In this document: one piece after another, positions 6,693 through 30,882 of the stretch | Layout of the letters: each line of letters opens with the position of its first letter | How positions within the stretch are numbered: the stretch's first letter is position 1 | IMG/VR virus record: IMGVR_UViG_3300010389_000078 | Span: 1-31,406 of that record | Origin: a virus | Direction: 5' to 3' (one strand) | DNA length: 31,406 nt | The notes under the pieces: generated by a model | What the model was told of the DNA's origin: nothing | Databases searched by the model: none | What the model saw: only the letters and a program-made list of their open reading frames with translations | Program-made: the position numbers and the translations under genes

Positions 6693-6700
6693 TATAAATA
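6693..6700 (+). promoter_or_regulatory. Late promoter TATAAATA upstream of gp8
   Basis: A perfect match to the T4 late promoter core TATAAATA lies 7 bases after the preceding stop codon and 18 bases before the gp8 ATG. In T4 this motif is read by the gp55 sigma factor with gp33 and the sliding clamp. No clear Shine-Dalgarno sequence lies between it and the start. Confidence 0.8.
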
Positions 6701-14028: not shown

Positions 14029-14036
14029 TATAAATA
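14029..14036 (+). promoter_or_regulatory. Late promoter TATAAATA upstream of the 834-aa protein gene
   Basis: A perfect T4-type late core lies in the 59-base gap after the DUF4815 gene, 36 bases before the next ATG. The spacing allows an untranslated leader that contains an 'AAGG' ribosome-binding element at about 14058. Confidence 0.8.
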
Positions 14037-20296: not shown

Positions 20297-20724
20297 AAAT
20301 GACTAAAAAATTTAAAGACTTAAATGAAACTTTTAACGTTTCTGGAGAAATAGTAGAAACAGAAAAAGTTTCTGAAATAAAAATTGAGGAAAATAAAAAT
20401 CCAACTGATGATGTAAAAAAAGATTATGAGTATACAAGAGGAAATCTTTATTCTCTAATAGAGAAAGGTCAAGAGGCTATAAATGGAATTCTGGAACTAG
20501 CACAAGAAAGTGAAATGCCTAGAGCATATGAAGTTGCAGGTCAATTAATTAAAAATGTTGCAGATGCCACAGATAAATTGATGGATCTTCAAAAGAAATT
20601 AAAAGATGTTGAAGAAGAAAAAGTATCAAGAGGGCCAACTACAGTAAATAATGCACTTTTTGTTGGTTCGACTGCAGACTTAGCAAAGTTTCTAAAGCAA
20701 CAAAGTGAAAATGAAAACGTTTAA
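20293..20724 (+). CDS. 16: Small terminase subunit gp16
   Basis: 143 residues (T4 gp16 has 164). 'DYEYTRGNLYSLIEKGQEAI' parallels T4 '[20 protein letters not shown]'. 'ESEMPRAYEVAGQLIKNVAD' parallels '[20 protein letters not shown]', and 'NNALFVGSTADLAKFL' parallels 'QNATVFMGSPTELMDE'. The central region is helical, as expected for the ring-forming core of small terminases, which recognise concatemeric DNA and stimulate gp17. The first ~35 residues are acidic and probably flexible. ATG at 20293 overlaps the gp15 stop; an alternative in-frame ATG at 20299 is possible. It overlaps the next small gene by 14 bases. Confidence 0.92.
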   Translation: MKMTKKFKDLNETFNVSGEIVETEKVSEIKIEENKNPTDDVKKDYEYTRGNLYSLIEKGQEAINGILELAQESEMPRAYEVAGQLIKNVADATDKLMDLQKKLKDVEEEKVSRGPTTVNNALFVGSTADLAKFLKQQSENENV

Positions 20725-20866
20725 ACAGTTTAGAGAAGACTGGACTAATAAATATAAAAAGAGTATTGATTGCTCAAATCCAAAAGGATTTTCTCAACGT
20801 GCTCATTGTGCAGCGAGAAGAAAAAGGGCAAAGGGTGAAGAAACTAAATCAAAACCAGTTGAATGA
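20711..20866 (+). CDS. 51-aa basic peptide with 'CNPKGFSQRAHC' motif
   Basis: The reading frame from ATG at 20711 to TGA at 20866 overlaps gp16 by 14 bases and the next gene by four (ATGA), strong signs of translational coupling. It begins 'MKTFKQFREDW', similar in its first seven residues to the T4 internal-protein targeting peptide (MKTYQEFIAE). It then has 'IDCSNPKGFSQRAHCAARRK', a basic loop bracketed by two cysteines that I associate with cyanophage proteins. The tail is charged. The function is unknown; a DNA-associated or packaged peptide is a guess. It lies between the two terminase subunit genes. Confidence 0.75.
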   Translation: MKTFKQFREDWTNKYKKSIDCSNPKGFSQRAHCAARRKRAKGEETKSKPVE

Positions 20867-22485
20867 AGAGTCAGAAGTTCTCCCACAAAACACCACATTT
20901 AAAAGGTAAGAAGCATCAGTTAGATCCTAATTTGGATTTAAAGCAACTTGTTCACCATGCATCAGTTGAATTTGTTGATCGTGATGCAGATGGTGATGTT
21001 GACCTATATGATTCCCCCAAAAAGAAAACTCCAGATGAAAATCCAACAGGAGTTGATGCGCAAACTCTATCTAAAAAATTAATTGCAAAGCAAAAAGGAG
21101 AAATTAAGCATACTAAAGTGGGACTTGCATATGAAGATAATCTCCATAAGTGGTATCAAGATTCGAAATCAAAAGAAGGAAAACCCGGATGGGTAAATGT
21201 TGTAACTGGAGGCACATGTGCAAGTGATGAACCTGGGGAAGGAACGCCAAAATGCGTGTCTTCAGAAAAAAGAGCAAGTATGACTCCAGCACAAAGACGC
21301 TCAGCAGCAAGAAGAAAAAAAGAAGCAGACCCAGGACAACAACAGAAGACTGGAGCTGCAAAACCAACATATGTTCCTACAGATAGTCCAAAAATGAAAA
21401 AAGAAGAAGTGGATTTACAAGAAGTAAAAGATAAACCAGGTAAAGGTAGTGGAAAAAAGGATGCATGTTATCATAAGGTAAAGTCAAAATACGATGTTTG
21501 GCCAAGTGCATATGCATCGGGAGCACTTGTCAAGTGTCGTAAAGTTGGAGCATCTAACTGGGGAACAAAAACGGAAGAAACTCACATGCATGAAGAAGAA
21601 AGATATTGCCCCCTTTGCAAAAAAAGAGAGTCAAGATCTGAGTGTTCATATGGCGAAAAGGCTTGGGATAAAGTTTCTGTAAAAGATGAAGAGTATTCTA
21701 TGGCCAGGTCAGAACTGAGCACTATTGTTGATGCTGTAAGAAGATTAAAGGCAAAAGTAGAGAATGGTGAAGGAAATCTAGAAGCATGGGTTCAATCAAA
21801 GATTACTAAAGCAGCGGATTATATTGATACTGCAGCAGACTATGTTGCTGGAGGAGAAATGGATGAAGATTGTTGGAGTGGTTATAAGCAAGTTGGAATG
21901 AAAAAGAAAGGAAAAAAAGTAGTACCAAATTGTGTTCCGGAAGAAACTATAGAAGATGCTAATGGTAATACATTTGCTGAGGTAGTAGATATCATTAAAC
22001 CAGAATCTATTAAAGGATTTAAATCTCAAATTGAGGAATCTGTCCGCATTCCATCAAAAACTGGAAATATTATCCTAGTAACTCTTGTTTGGAGAGGTAA
22101 ATACTACGGTATTAAGATGTTCTTTCCACAGACAACTAAACCAAATAGAAAAGAAGTTCAGGACCAGATTGAGAAAGTTTATCCAGGTTCTAGAGTTCAG
22201 TCATATTATGTTTCCGATATTAAACCAGGTGAGCAATTTCTTCAGGTTGAAGATTGGCAAAAAATAAATCGGAAGGATAAAACTGATGGTTTGAGTCCTG
22301 CTGCAGTAAAAGCATATCGTAGGGAGAATCCAGGTTCAAAACTCAAAACTGCTGTTACTACACCACCCTCAGAATTAAAACCAGGATCAGCAGACTGGAA
22401 AAGAAGAAAAAATTTCTGTAGTCGTTCCAGAAGTTGGACTGGAGAAAGAGGTAAAGCTGCCCGCAAACGCTGGAATTGTAATTAA
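20863..22485 (+). CDS. 540-aa basic Cys-rich mosaic protein (DUF5872-like) between terminase genes
   Basis: Several short modules can be seen in order. An EF-hand-like loop lies at residues 39-50 (D39, D41, D43, G44, V46, D50). A first Cys pair is at 119 and 131, followed by a basic helix ('MTPAQRRSAARRKK'). A DUF5872-like block at about 195-234 includes 'KYDVWPSAYASGALVKCRKV'. A possible zinc knuckle has C249, C252 and C261. A helical segment at about 276-332 includes 'LEAWVQSKITKAADYIDTAA'. A pair C337/C357 flanks 'GYKQVGMKKKGKKVVPN'. A WxGxYYxxxM domain at about 400-466 is shared with the 106-aa protein near the portal gene. A C-terminal pair C519/C539 flanks an Arg/Lys-rich loop. The protein is strongly basic, suggesting DNA or RNA contact. 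No catalytic motif is evident. T4 has no gene here, since gp16 and gp17 are adjacent. It may be packaged or may help packaging; this is inference. Confidence 0.8.
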   Translation: MKSQKFSHKTPHLKGKKHQLDPNLDLKQLVHHASVEFVDRDADGDVDLYDSPKKKTPDENPTGVDAQTLSKKLIAKQKGEIKHTKVGLAYEDNLHKWYQDSKSKEGKPGWVNVVTGGTCASDEPGEGTPKCVSSEKRASMTPAQRRSAARRKKEADPGQQQKTGAAKPTYVPTDSPKMKKEEVDLQEVKDKPGKGSGKKDACYHKVKSKYDVWPSAYASGALVKCRKVGASNWGTKTEETHMHEEERYCPLCKKRESRSECSYGEKAWDKVSVKDEEYSMARSELSTIVDAVRRLKAKVENGEGNLEAWVQSKITKAADYIDTAADYVAGGEMDEDCWSGYKQVGMKKKGKKVVPNCVPEETIEDANGNTFAEVVDIIKPESIKGFKSQIEESVRIPSKTGNIILVTLVWRGKYYGIKMFFPQTTKPNRKEVQDQIEKVYPGSRVQSYYVSDIKPGEQFLQVEDWQKINRKDKTDGLSPAAVKAYRRENPGSKLKTAVTTPPSELKPGSADWKRRKNFCSRSRSWTGERGKAARKRWNCN

Positions 22486-27361: not shown

Positions 27362-29029
27362 ATGTCGAAATTATTTGGATTCTCTATAGAGAATACTGAA
27401 CCACTATCTCCAAGTACGGTCAGTCCAGTTCCTCCAAACAATGAGGATGAGTCTGACCATTACTTGAGTAGTGGTTTTTTTGGTTCGTATGTTGATATTG
27501 AAGGGGTATATAGAACTGAATTTGATTTAATCAAAAGATATCGTGAAATGGCACTTCATCCAGAGTGCGATAGTGCCATTGAAGATATTGTTAATGAGGC
27601 TATCGTTTCGGACACTAATGATAGCCCTGTTCAAATTGATTTGGATAACCTCAATGCCAGTGATGGCATCAAAAAGAAAATTAGAGATGAGTTTAAGTAT
27701 ATTCTAGAACTTTTAGACTTTGATAAAAAATCTCACGAAATTTATAGGAATTGGTATATTGATGGTCGTCTCTATTACCATAAGGTAATTGACTTAAAAA
27801 ATCCACAAGAGGGCATTCAAGAACTTCGGTATATTGATGCCATGAAGATGCGATATATTAGGCAAAATAAAAAGACGAAGGAAGATAGGTTTAGACTTTC
27901 TAATGTCAATAGTGACAATCCAATGGATTATGAATTTCCACAGATAGAAGAATATTTTATATACAATCCAAAAACTACATATTCAACATCAAATCCATCA
28001 TCGATGGGTGGAAGTGCTGGCATTAAAATGTCTAAAGATTCTATTGCATATTGCACATCTGGTCTGGTTGACAGAAATAAAGGAACAACATTATCATATC
28101 TTCACAAGGCAATCAAGTCACTTAATCAACTTCGCATGATTGAGGACTCACTTGTTATCTATAGATTGTCCCGTGCTCCTGAGCGTAGAATTTTCTATAT
28201 TGACGTTGGCAATCTTCCTAAAGTAAAGGCAGAACAATATCTTCGTGATGTTATGATGCGTTATCGTAACAAACTTGTGTATGATGCAAGCACTGGTGAG
28301 ATTCGTGACGATAAAAAGTTTATGAGTATGCTTGAAGATTTCTGGCTTCCTCGTCGTGAAGGTGGCAGAGGAACTGAAATCTCCACACTCCCAGGTGGCC
28401 AGAATCTAGGAGAAATTACCGATATTGAATATTTTAAGAAAAAATTATATCGTTCTCTAAATGTACCTCCATCAAGAATGGATGGAGAAGGTGGATTTAA
28501 TCTTGGAAGATCTTCAGAAATTCTAAGAGATGAACTAAAATTTACAAAGTTTGTGAGTCGTTTGAGAAAAAGATTCTCAAACATGTTCAGCGACATGCTT
28601 AGAACCCAATTAATCCTCAAGAATATTATTACTCCAGAGGACTGGGAACTCATGAGAGAGCATATTCAATATGATTTCTTATACGACAATCATTTTTCGG
28701 AACTAAAAGATTCAGAACTTCTTAACGAGAGACTGAATATGGTTGCTACTGCAGAACCTTACGTTGGAAAATATTTCTCACAAGATTATGTAAGACGCAA
28801 AATTCTACGTCAAACTGATATTGAAATCTTGGAACAAGATGCTTTGATTAAGAAAGAAATTGAGGATGGGATTATTCCAGACCCAAGTATTCCAACTGAC
28901 CCAGAAACCGGATTACCATTAGACCAGTCTGCTGGAATGGATTTGGGGGCCCCTGTTGTTGAACCAGATTTAGAATCTCAAGCATCTGCAGTAAAAGCAC
29001 CAGAAATTCCTAAGGGTGGCGAGATATAA
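27362..29029 (+). CDS. 20: Portal vertex protein gp20
   Basis: 555 residues (T4 gp20 has 524). The core 'RAPERRIFYIDVGNLPKVKA' with 'YRNKLVYDASTGEIRDDKKF', 'EDFWLPRREGGRGTEISTLP' and 'YRSLNVPPSRM' is the hallmark of T4-type portal proteins and the region used for cyanophage g20 surveys. 'HPECDSAIEDIVNEAI' near residue 67 is also typical. Twelve copies form the ring through which DNA enters and leaves, and which nucleates prohead assembly. The C-terminal ~50 residues are Pro/Ala/Gln-rich and probably disordered. A late promoter precedes it, and another overlaps its stop codon. Confidence 0.97.
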   Translation: MSKLFGFSIENTEPLSPSTVSPVPPNNEDESDHYLSSGFFGSYVDIEGVYRTEFDLIKRYREMALHPECDSAIEDIVNEAIVSDTNDSPVQIDLDNLNASDGIKKKIRDEFKYILELLDFDKKSHEIYRNWYIDGRLYYHKVIDLKNPQEGIQELRYIDAMKMRYIRQNKKTKEDRFRLSNVNSDNPMDYEFPQIEEYFIYNPKTTYSTSNPSSMGGSAGIKMSKDSIAYCTSGLVDRNKGTTLSYLHKAIKSLNQLRMIEDSLVIYRLSRAPERRIFYIDVGNLPKVKAEQYLRDVMMRYRNKLVYDASTGEIRDDKKFMSMLEDFWLPRREGGRGTEISTLPGGQNLGEITDIEYFKKKLYRSLNVPPSRMDGEGGFNLGRSSEILRDELKFTKFVSRLRKRFSNMFSDMLRTQLILKNIITPEDWELMREHIQYDFLYDNHFSELKDSELLNERLNMVATAEPYVGKYFSQDYVRRKILRQTDIEILEQDALIKKEIEDGIIPDPSIPTDPETGLPLDQSAGMDLGAPVVEPDLESQASAVKAPEIPKGGEI

Positions 29030-29032
29030 ATA
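29025..29032 (+). promoter_or_regulatory. Late promoter TATAAATA overlapping the gp20 stop
   Basis: A perfect late core motif contains the gp20 TAA stop and lies 28 bases before the next ATG, so it would drive the head-core genes separately from the portal. Confidence 0.75.
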
Positions 29033-29060: not shown

Positions 29061-29225
29061 ATGGATGATCTAATGGACATGATTATTTCTGACGAATCAC
29101 CATCTCAAATTAGTGATAAAATTAAAGATATTCTTTTTTCAAAATCAGCGGAAAAGATAGATGCTTTTAGACCATCTGTAGCTGCAAGTATGTTTGATGA
29201 AATGGAAGTAGAAGAAGAGGAATGA
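29061..29225 (+). CDS. Acidic 54-aa peptide, candidate prohead core protein gp67
   Basis: The frame from ATG at 29061 to TGA at 29225 encodes a short helical protein with 'DKIKDILFSKSAEKIDAFRP', then 'SVAASMFDEMEV' and a terminal run of glutamates. Position (directly after the portal gene), small size and an acidic C-terminus all match T4 gp67 (80 aa), a scaffolding-core protein cut by the gp21 protease. Sequence similarity to T4 gp67 is weak, so the identification rests mainly on synteny and composition. The stop is followed by one base before the next ATG, and 'AGAAGAGG' inside its end probably serves as the ribosome binding site of that gene. Confidence 0.65.
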   Translation: MDDLMDMIISDESPSQISDKIKDILFSKSAEKIDAFRPSVAASMFDEMEVEEEE

Positions 29226-29226
29226 T

Positions 29227-29547
29227 ATGAAATCTTTCAAGCAATTTATCTCAGAATCGGTTAATATTGCTGGAGATTTTACAGGAAATCTCTATATAAA
29301 CTCTCGGCAAGAACAACCACAACAAGTCGGTGAGGAATATGTTGCCGACATTATGTGGAATGGGAGTTTATATAGAATGGAAATGATTACTAAAAATGGT
29401 ATTCCTACTACAAGAGAACTTGGTGAGCAACTCCAATCTGAATATCCAGGTGCAGTTGTTCATCAAATTTATCCTGTAGTTGAAAAGAATTTAAATATCA
29501 AAAACGCAAAAAGATACCACCCATCAAAGTTAGAATGGATTGATTGA
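29227..29547 (+). CDS. 106-aa putative internal head protein with capsid-targeting-like N-terminus
   Basis: The first ten residues, MKSFKQFISE, line up without gaps with the T4 internal-protein capsid-targeting sequence MKTYQEFIAE. They place I8-x-E10 where the T4 gp21 prohead protease cuts after (L/I)xE. Next comes 'NIAGDFTGNLYINS', then a compact domain (about residues 35-104) with 'ADIMWNGSLYRMEM', 'RELGEQLQSEYPGAVVHQIY' and a 'LEWID' end. The same domain occurs at about residues 400-466 of the 540-aa protein between the terminase genes. It lies in the prohead-core region, next to the gp67-like peptide. Packaging inside the head is inferred from the N-terminus and location. The biochemical role is unknown. 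Confidence 0.78.
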   Translation: MKSFKQFISESVNIAGDFTGNLYINSRQEQPQQVGEEYVADIMWNGSLYRMEMITKNGIPTTRELGEQLQSEYPGAVVHQIYPVVEKNLNIKNAKRYHPSKLEWID

Positions 29548-29550
29548 TAA

Positions 29551-30882
29551 ATGGCTCAGTGGAATAAAAATAATCAAGACTATCTGAATCAAGAAAGAAC
29601 ACTTTTTGAAGTGTTTATGAGAGCAGATAGATTTGGAAATATTTGCGATTGCAGTTCTTCCTCTTCTGGAGGAGTTTCTGGGTCTGGTAGTTTTTCCACA
29701 GATTTATTTGGACGAGTAAAAGTTTCAAACCCGGTAACACTATTTGATTCATCGCACATCTATTCTCAAGATGGTGATTTTGATGATGTTCTAGTTGGAA
29801 CAGGTGCTACTGTTGGATTCATAACAGCACAAAGTTCTGCAACTTTGGGTATTGGAACTACTGCTGGATGTAGATTAGTTCGTCAAAGTAAAAGAGCATT
29901 TTCATATCAACCAGGAAAGTCTTTGCAAGTATTACAAACTTTTGTTCTTAATGAACCAAAAGAGAATCTAACTCAAAGAGTTGGTTATGGTTCATCTACA
30001 AATGGCGTATTCTTGGAACAAATTGGTTCTCAAATTAATATCATCAAAAGAACTTCAGTATCTGGAACTTTATCCACAGTTACTATTCCACAATCAGAGT
30101 GGAATGTTGATAGATTGGATGGAACAGGTATTAGCACAGATAATCCAAGTGGTGTTGCTTTAGATTTAACAAAAGCACAAATTCTTTTCTCTGAATATGA
30201 GTGGTTGGGTGTTGGTTCAGTAAAAGTTGGTTTTGCAATTGATAGTAATTTTATTACCGCACATCAATTTAATCACGCAAATCTTACTGATAGTGTCTAT
30301 ATGACATCCGCAACTCTTCCACTTCGTTATGAAATTGAAAACACTGGAATTACAACTTCATCTTCGATGATGAAACAGATTTGTGCCAGTGTTATGTCTA
30401 ATGGTGGATATGAAAGAAAGAGAGCAGAAAATATTGCAAGAAGAACTACTGGAACAGAGGTTGGAACATCTTTTGAACCTTTAGTTTCTATAAGATTAAA
30501 GCGAGGAAGAAATTTTGCAGTTGTAGTCCCACAACAAATTCTTGCATTTCCATTAGATAATAATGCTGCATATGAAGTTGCACTTATTAAAAATGGAACT
30601 CTAACTGGTGCTGCATTTACAGATATTCCAAATTCAGAATCTGATAATGTAGAATATGATATTACTGCATCTACTATGACTGGTGGAGATATTGTCAATC
30701 TTCGTTATGTTTATGGTTCCAACCAAGCAGGTGGAATTATTACAGTAGAGCAAGGATATAACTGGGACTTACAGTTGGGTGTCACTCAAGCAGGTGTAAG
30801 TGATATTTACACAGTTGCTGCAAGAACTCTAACTGGTGCTGCAGACATTACTGGTGCTATTAGTTTTTATGACCTAACTTGA
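29551..30882 (+). CDS. Virion structural protein, 443 aa (marine phage type)
   Basis: A short N-terminal helix ('NQERTLFEVFMRADRFGNIC') and a Ser/Gly linker (about residues 34-47) precede 'LFGRVKVSNPVTLFDSSHIY' and 'DDVLVGTGATVGF'. The segment FGRxxVSNPxTLFDS is one I associate with structural proteins of marine tailed phages. The rest is beta-rich, with regular hydrophobic/hydrophilic alternation and a Gly/Ala-rich C-terminus. No enzyme motif is seen. The gene lies 3 bases after the 106-aa gene. T4 has gene 68 and the prohead protease gene 21 here, so this is an insertion relative to T4. It is probably a head- or tail-decoration or fibre-like protein. Confidence 0.75.
   Translation: MAQWNKNNQDYLNQERTLFEVFMRADRFGNICDCSSSSSGGVSGSGSFSTDLFGRVKVSNPVTLFDSSHIYSQDGDFDDVLVGTGATVGFITAQSSATLGIGTTAGCRLVRQSKRAFSYQPGKSLQVLQTFVLNEPKENLTQRVGYGSSTNGVFLEQIGSQINIIKRTSVSGTLSTVTIPQSEWNVDRLDGTGISTDNPSGVALDLTKAQILFSEYEWLGVGSVKVGFAIDSNFITAHQFNHANLTDSVYMTSATLPLRYEIENTGITTSSSMMKQICASVMSNGGYERKRAENIARRTTGTEVGTSFEPLVSIRLKRGRNFAVVVPQQILAFPLDNNAAYEVALIKNGTLTGAAFTDIPNSESDNVEYDITASTMTGGDIVNLRYVYGSNQAGGIITVEQGYNWDLQLGVTQAGVSDIYTVAARTLTGAADITGAISFYDLT

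Follow-up and report, generated by a model that had tools for sequence, protein, structure and literature searches.

A ten-residue start on a small phage protein raises the question of whether that start alone tells where the protein goes during head assembly. The gene lies on a viral contig of 31,406 nt (the window, meaning the whole stretch of DNA analysed here), which comes from a T4-like phage and is like T4-like cyanophages in gene order and similarity; its hosts are probably cyanobacteria. The protein has 106 amino acids (29227..29547, + strand), belongs to the phrog_1742 family and starts with MKSFKQFISES. Its first ten residues, MKSFKQFISE (29227..29256, +), resemble the capsid-targeting sequence (CTS) of the T4 internal proteins (IPs), and from the conservation of this motif and the rules known from T4 (PMC9026906) a cut by the gp21 protease is predicted between E10 and S11. 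The predicted mature part (29257..29544, +) comprises 96 aa with a pI of 5.3; in it a linker leads into a bb-a-b core at residues 36-83, which is followed by a conserved tail.

On the 5' side, the gene is preceded by the portal protein gp20 (27362..29029, +; Pfam Portal_T4, E=1e-194) and directly adjoined by a 54-aa acidic ORF (29061..29225, +), which we infer to be a gp67-like prohead-core gene from its position after gp20 and its T4 gp67-like acidic tail; it matches phrog_14164 and phrog_2088, neither of which has a known function. The 3' neighbour is, as usual for this family, a 443-aa virion structural protein of phrog_1645 (29551..30882, +), and gp21 lies beyond the end of the window. A search of Rfam around the 106-aa gene gave no match. 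The T4-type late-promoter-like octamer TATAAATA is found upstream of the gp67-like gene (29025..29032, +), where its position is suggestive only. The window contains three such octamers, all on the + strand (6693-6700, 14029-14036 and 29025-29032) and each shortly 5' of structural ORFs; they are late-promoter candidates, in a number no higher than expected by chance.

Compared with MKTYQEFIAE, the start of IPII and IPIII in the T4 record, the decapeptide is identical at positions 1, 2, 7, 8 and 10, so that the match at M1, K2, F7, I8 and E10 claimed in the preliminary description is borne out. The same applies to the (L/I)xE protease site, said to fall at the same residue as in T4. A closer match than IPII and IPIII is T4 gp61.1 with MKTFKEFIKE, which shares seven of the ten residues. 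In T4, IPIII needs no more than its first ten residues to be packaged, and mutational data assign residues 4 and 7 to targeting and residues 8 and 10 to processing (PMC9026906). All of 120 distinct homologues, the most distant of them 45% identical to the protein of the window, have the motif: M1, K2, F7 and E10 are invariant, the targeting residue 4, beside the invariant F7, is F or Y in all 120, residue 8 is I or L in 117 and M in three, and residue 5 is free. Among 29 sequences less than 85% identical to each other, the mean entropy is 0.56 bits for positions 2-10, compared with 0.70 (11-26), 1.06 (37-84) and 1.47 bits (85-106) elsewhere. Residues 11-26 are thus nearly as conserved as the tag, and conservation alone cannot single out a cleavable tag. 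The pattern MKx[FY]xxF[ILVM]xE is expected by chance at about 2.7e-6 per ORF start. In 20 T4-type records, the DNA pattern matched 35 times and the reversed pattern not at all, and in the ORFs of at least 100 aa of S-SCSM1 and S-CREM2 the core motif occurred four times at residue 2 and never internally (126,540 residues). There is good support for reading the decapeptide as a CTS of the T4 type.

The window contains a second CTS-like start, on a 51-aa basic ORF (20711..20866, +; MKTFKQFREDWTNKYKKS...) beginning with MKTFKQFRED. Residues 4 and 7 are kept there, but residue 8 is R and residue 10 is D; the T4 data suggest that D10 permits targeting and blocks processing.

A published table of virion proteins is available for the cyanophage S-CREM2 (PMC10665884, Table 3), and the motif was fixed before this phage was inspected, except that GTG starts and small shifts were allowed. 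Three ORFs carried the motif, encoding an NMNAT-like enzyme (ORF154), an APH-like kinase (ORF14) and a SAM hydrolase (ORF6), and all three were detected in virions, as were 52 of the 219 ORFs overall (hypergeometric p=0.013). These three make up the whole 'regulatory' group of the virion proteins, a match that is stronger but post hoc. Looser versions of the tag are found on two further virion-detected proteins, ORF13 (MKDLHSFLTEQ) and ORF136 (MQTFSMFFSE). In the virion-detected Cas9-like nuclease ORF12 (OR473000: 7704-10313, -), an N-terminal extension precedes a CTS-like stretch, RFASFMAEA (residues 18-26), and an ORF near the S-CRM01 kinase is built similarly (SLDSFIKEA).

In other cyanophages, the NMNAT of S-SCSM1, which was detected in virions (PMC9602691), starts with MKSFLQFLKE, and the virion NMNAT (cytidylyltransferase) of S-SZBM1 with MRFRQFIIE, one residue shorter. 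The homologue of the S-CREM2 kinase in S-CRM01 starts with MISFDQFLSE; equating this ORF with the S-CRM01 virion kinase rests on PMC10665884. NMNAT and kinases have also been reported for S-CBWM1, which is not a T4 phage, and a search of this phage with a relaxed motif pattern gave no match. The authors of the cyanophage proteomes left undecided whether such enzymes are packaged or are contaminants (PMC9602691, PMC10665884), and carry-over was considered possible in PMC10665884. Judged by their N-termini, most of the non-structural enzymes detected in T4-like cyanophage virions bear the same tag. These enzymes share the N-terminal tag with the 106-aa protein and likewise come from T4-like phages that encode gp21; they are large and detected by mass spectrometry, whereas the 106-aa protein is without known activity and was not detected.

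How widely the tag is used was examined with a DNA pattern for starts of the form MKTFx-E-F-I-x-E-A in IMG/VR, which matched at least 120 stretches. Among the 120 matches listed, the bodies behind the tag form 29 clusters that do not resemble one another, and T4-like ORFs are present at 115 of the 120 loci, although the collection is one of viruses in general. The mature parts of the tagged proteins in these matches have a median pI of 10.3. Some tagged proteins are labelled 'internal head protein' in PHROGs (phrog_2667), Pfam matches include SAM lyase, a DPBB domain, DUF5661 and DUF6321, and further tagged proteins are present in relatives of the window phage. Several loci deserve mention on their own. 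L104 (G003:76500-84500, -) has four tagged starts (MKTFQQFILE, MKTFKEFILE, MKTFQEFVLE and MKTFRKFLEE), and the protein with the last of these has a weak match to GNAT acetyltransferases. A 154-aa tagged protein (L106:788-1249, +) looks ADP-ribosyltransferase-like by eye (HGTSPEAKKSIQQSGFR...GPGVYTS), with T4 Alt as an analogy, and gave no match in Pfam. Short tagged proteins at L101 (G005:19877) and L172:2325-2834 resemble the SAM-lyase part of S-CREM2 ORF6 and are, from this resemblance, candidates for packaged anti-restriction cargo. The contig of L165 (G018, 118 kb) contains nine starts with the tag pattern, and when this locus was compared with the T4-like reference set, no strong similarity was seen.

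The 106-aa protein matches the phrog_1742 profile over residues 1-100 (E=2.8e-41), a family of unknown function. Homologues were found in 137 phage records, all of them cyanophages, and in 333 IMG/VR stretches. The gene is usually located directly 5' of phrog_1645, in two genomic settings: in the clade of the window it follows the portal and gp67-like genes, and in the other it follows the 540-aa phrog_727 family. The upstream gene was the 540-aa family at 88 and the gp67-like gene at 82 of the loci tallied, numbers that reflect sampling by three chosen queries and not natural frequencies. The location in the prohead-core region, which had been put forward as part of the case for an internal protein, is therefore true of the window, with the portal, the gp67-like gene and the 106-aa gene in a row and gp21 downstream in 49 relatives, but it is lineage-specific: about half of the loci place the gene outside that block. 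With the 540-aa family upstream at 88 of the tallied loci, we dropped the location as support for an IP-like reading.

In the window, the 540-aa member of phrog_727 / DUF6321 is encoded at 20863..22485 (+), and its C-terminal part includes a homologue of the core domain of the 106-aa protein (22048..22209, +; E=6e-5, 26%). The homology is also seen with hhalign (96.3%, E=1.8e-9), and the domain recurs in SSCSM1_29, which is labelled as a virion protein, as well as in proteins of 440 aa whose N-terminus is a CTS. Unlike the 106-aa protein, the phrog_727 / DUF6321 proteins, among them the window ORF and SSCSM1_29, have several modules and mostly lack the tag at their start. Proteins of this family (20863-22485 and relatives) are strung together from exchangeable modules rich in cysteine and lysine, and their N-termini vary greatly; some members, for instance that of L179, start with a CTS themselves.

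In the fold predicted for the 106-aa protein, the N-terminal helix stands apart from a small bb-a-b core, the CTS helix being modelled with low confidence. Nothing significant was found in Pfam and NCBIfam, and a sequence search of the PDB gave no match. Foldseek against the PDB returned weak hits only (T7 Gp2, YkzG and a crAss001 virion protein, E 0.75 or worse). The best alignment with VIA-align was again T7 Gp2 (Z 4.7, 50 residues, rmsd 2.4), with unrelated rows close behind and ribosomal and other bb-a-b folds forming the background. Since the Gp2 match is within this background, no function was assigned from the fold searches.

For the fate of the protein, the preliminary description had predicted packaging into the head and processing after E10. 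Read from the tag and from the relatives, prohead-core targeting and the cut after E10 are likely. Gp21 is encoded downstream in the 49 relatives, 1.6-2.5 kb away among those listed, and its motifs GELGHP and GVSSRG are present in 25 of the 25 relatives listed; the maturation sites of gp23 in relatives are LME/S, LAE/S or LTE/A, often with Ser at P1'. Cleavage after E10 is plausible because the relatives' gp21 has both catalytic motifs and the gp23 sites often have Ser at P1'. For abundant packaging in mature virions, the picture is less favourable, as homologues are missing from the virion proteomes of S-SCSM1 and S-SZBM1 (45 and 30 proteins), from which small proteins can escape, and the mature part is acidic. 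In the GenBank labels of S-SCSM1, the homologue SSCSM1_30 is hypothetical while both its neighbours are virion proteins, and SSZBM1_191 is not in the explicit S-SZBM1 virion table, in which its neighbour SSZBM1_190, a homologue of phrog_1645, is listed. Observable tryptic peptides exist for both homologues. The median pI of the mature family members is 4.9 (range 4.4-6.1), whereas those of the T4 IPs are about 7.9-9.7; the virion-detected kinase of S-CREM2 has a pI of 4.5, and thus a basic charge is not required for packaging.

The protein is like T4 IPII and IPIII in its ten-residue CTS, with an aromatic residue at 4, F7 and (I/L)xE at 8-10, and like IPI-IPIII in having a small body and coming from a phage that encodes gp21. 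The close comparison with IPI-IPIII that had been proposed is not supported, however: no similarity of the bodies was detected, the protein is acidic where the IPs are basic, and its homologues are absent from the two virion proteomes. A basic body associated with DNA is usual for IPs but does not strictly define them. The family also evolves slowly, in conserved synteny. T4 gp61.1, the best T4 match for the decapeptide, is likewise small and acidic (pI 5.0), but it has 54 aa, no evident body similarity and an annotation as hypothetical only.

Taking these data together, we think it probable that MKSFKQFISE is a T4-type CTS on a late protein that is bound to the core and cut by gp21 after E10, freeing an acidic domain in the head. 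In such a process, the protein would be expressed late, its N-terminal helix would bind the assembling prohead core through F4 and F7, and the gp21 prohead protease would cut at ISE/S, thereby releasing the small acidic domain inside the head; throughout the T4-like cyanophages, the same tag would load many unrelated cargos, including the enzymes found in virions. We lean slightly towards a low-copy or assembly-stage role, like that of gp67 or gp22, over a retained, injected virion protein, since this fits the negative proteomics slightly better. Alternatively, it could be a true internal protein of the IPI* kind, present in large amounts in the mature head and, once injected, acting on the host (for example in counter-defence or in modulating the polymerase). 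This would agree with the tag itself, with the T4 precedent and with the virion enzymes carrying the same tag, among which a SAM-lyase-family protein is a plausible anti-restriction cargo. The weak similarity to the RNA polymerase inhibitor T7 Gp2 (Z 4.7, E 0.75) would point the same way, but it lies within background, and the protein is acidic, undetected in two virion proteomes and strongly conserved in sequence and synteny, whereas T4 IPs diverge rapidly. We regard this possibility as doubtful.

It might also be that the protein is an assembly partner of the phrog_1645 or the 540-aa phrog_727 proteins, with the helix binding that partner and the likeness to a CTS being convergent. The gene adjoins phrog_1645 at most loci in both genomic settings, and at many loci it is directly 3' of the 540-aa family, with which it shares a domain. 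S-SCSM1 and S-SKS1, however, carry the gene without phrog_1645, so that a strict dependence on phrog_1645 was rejected, and the CTS on some members of the 540-aa family together with motif rules close to those of T4 also argues against convergence, making this reading rather improbable. The shortness of the motif could suggest a chance likeness to a common amphipathic N-terminus; given 35 matches against none in the reversed control, no internal occurrences, invariance in the 120 homologues and T4-like loci for 115 of 120 among the matches listed, such a coincidence is very hard to believe.

With a modest leaning in favour, we propose, beyond the reading of the 106-aa protein itself, that one portable CTS loads and injects varied cargos in T4-like cyanophages, and probably in other marine and freshwater T4-like phages. 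On the same modest leaning, the 106-aa family would be one of these cargos, together with many small basic proteins, SAM lyase, protein kinases and NMNAT-like enzymes; proteins resembling acetyltransferases, ADP-ribosyltransferases or a Cas9 nuclease are possibly further ones. In the literature searched, which included few subscription papers, we found no description of a CTS common to virion enzymes of T4-like cyanophages, and this is the part most worth testing. As a highly conserved carrier of the tag, the 106-aa family is a good marker of tag use in cyanophage heads. A portable CTS, if true, would account for the 'virion-associated' enzymes, the packaging of which the original authors left undecided, and it would provide a mechanism for the packaging of cyanophage metabolic enzymes that can be tested simply by mutation. 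Provided that the tag acts as it does in T4, the sequence of a phage could tell which of its proteins are packaged and possibly injected.
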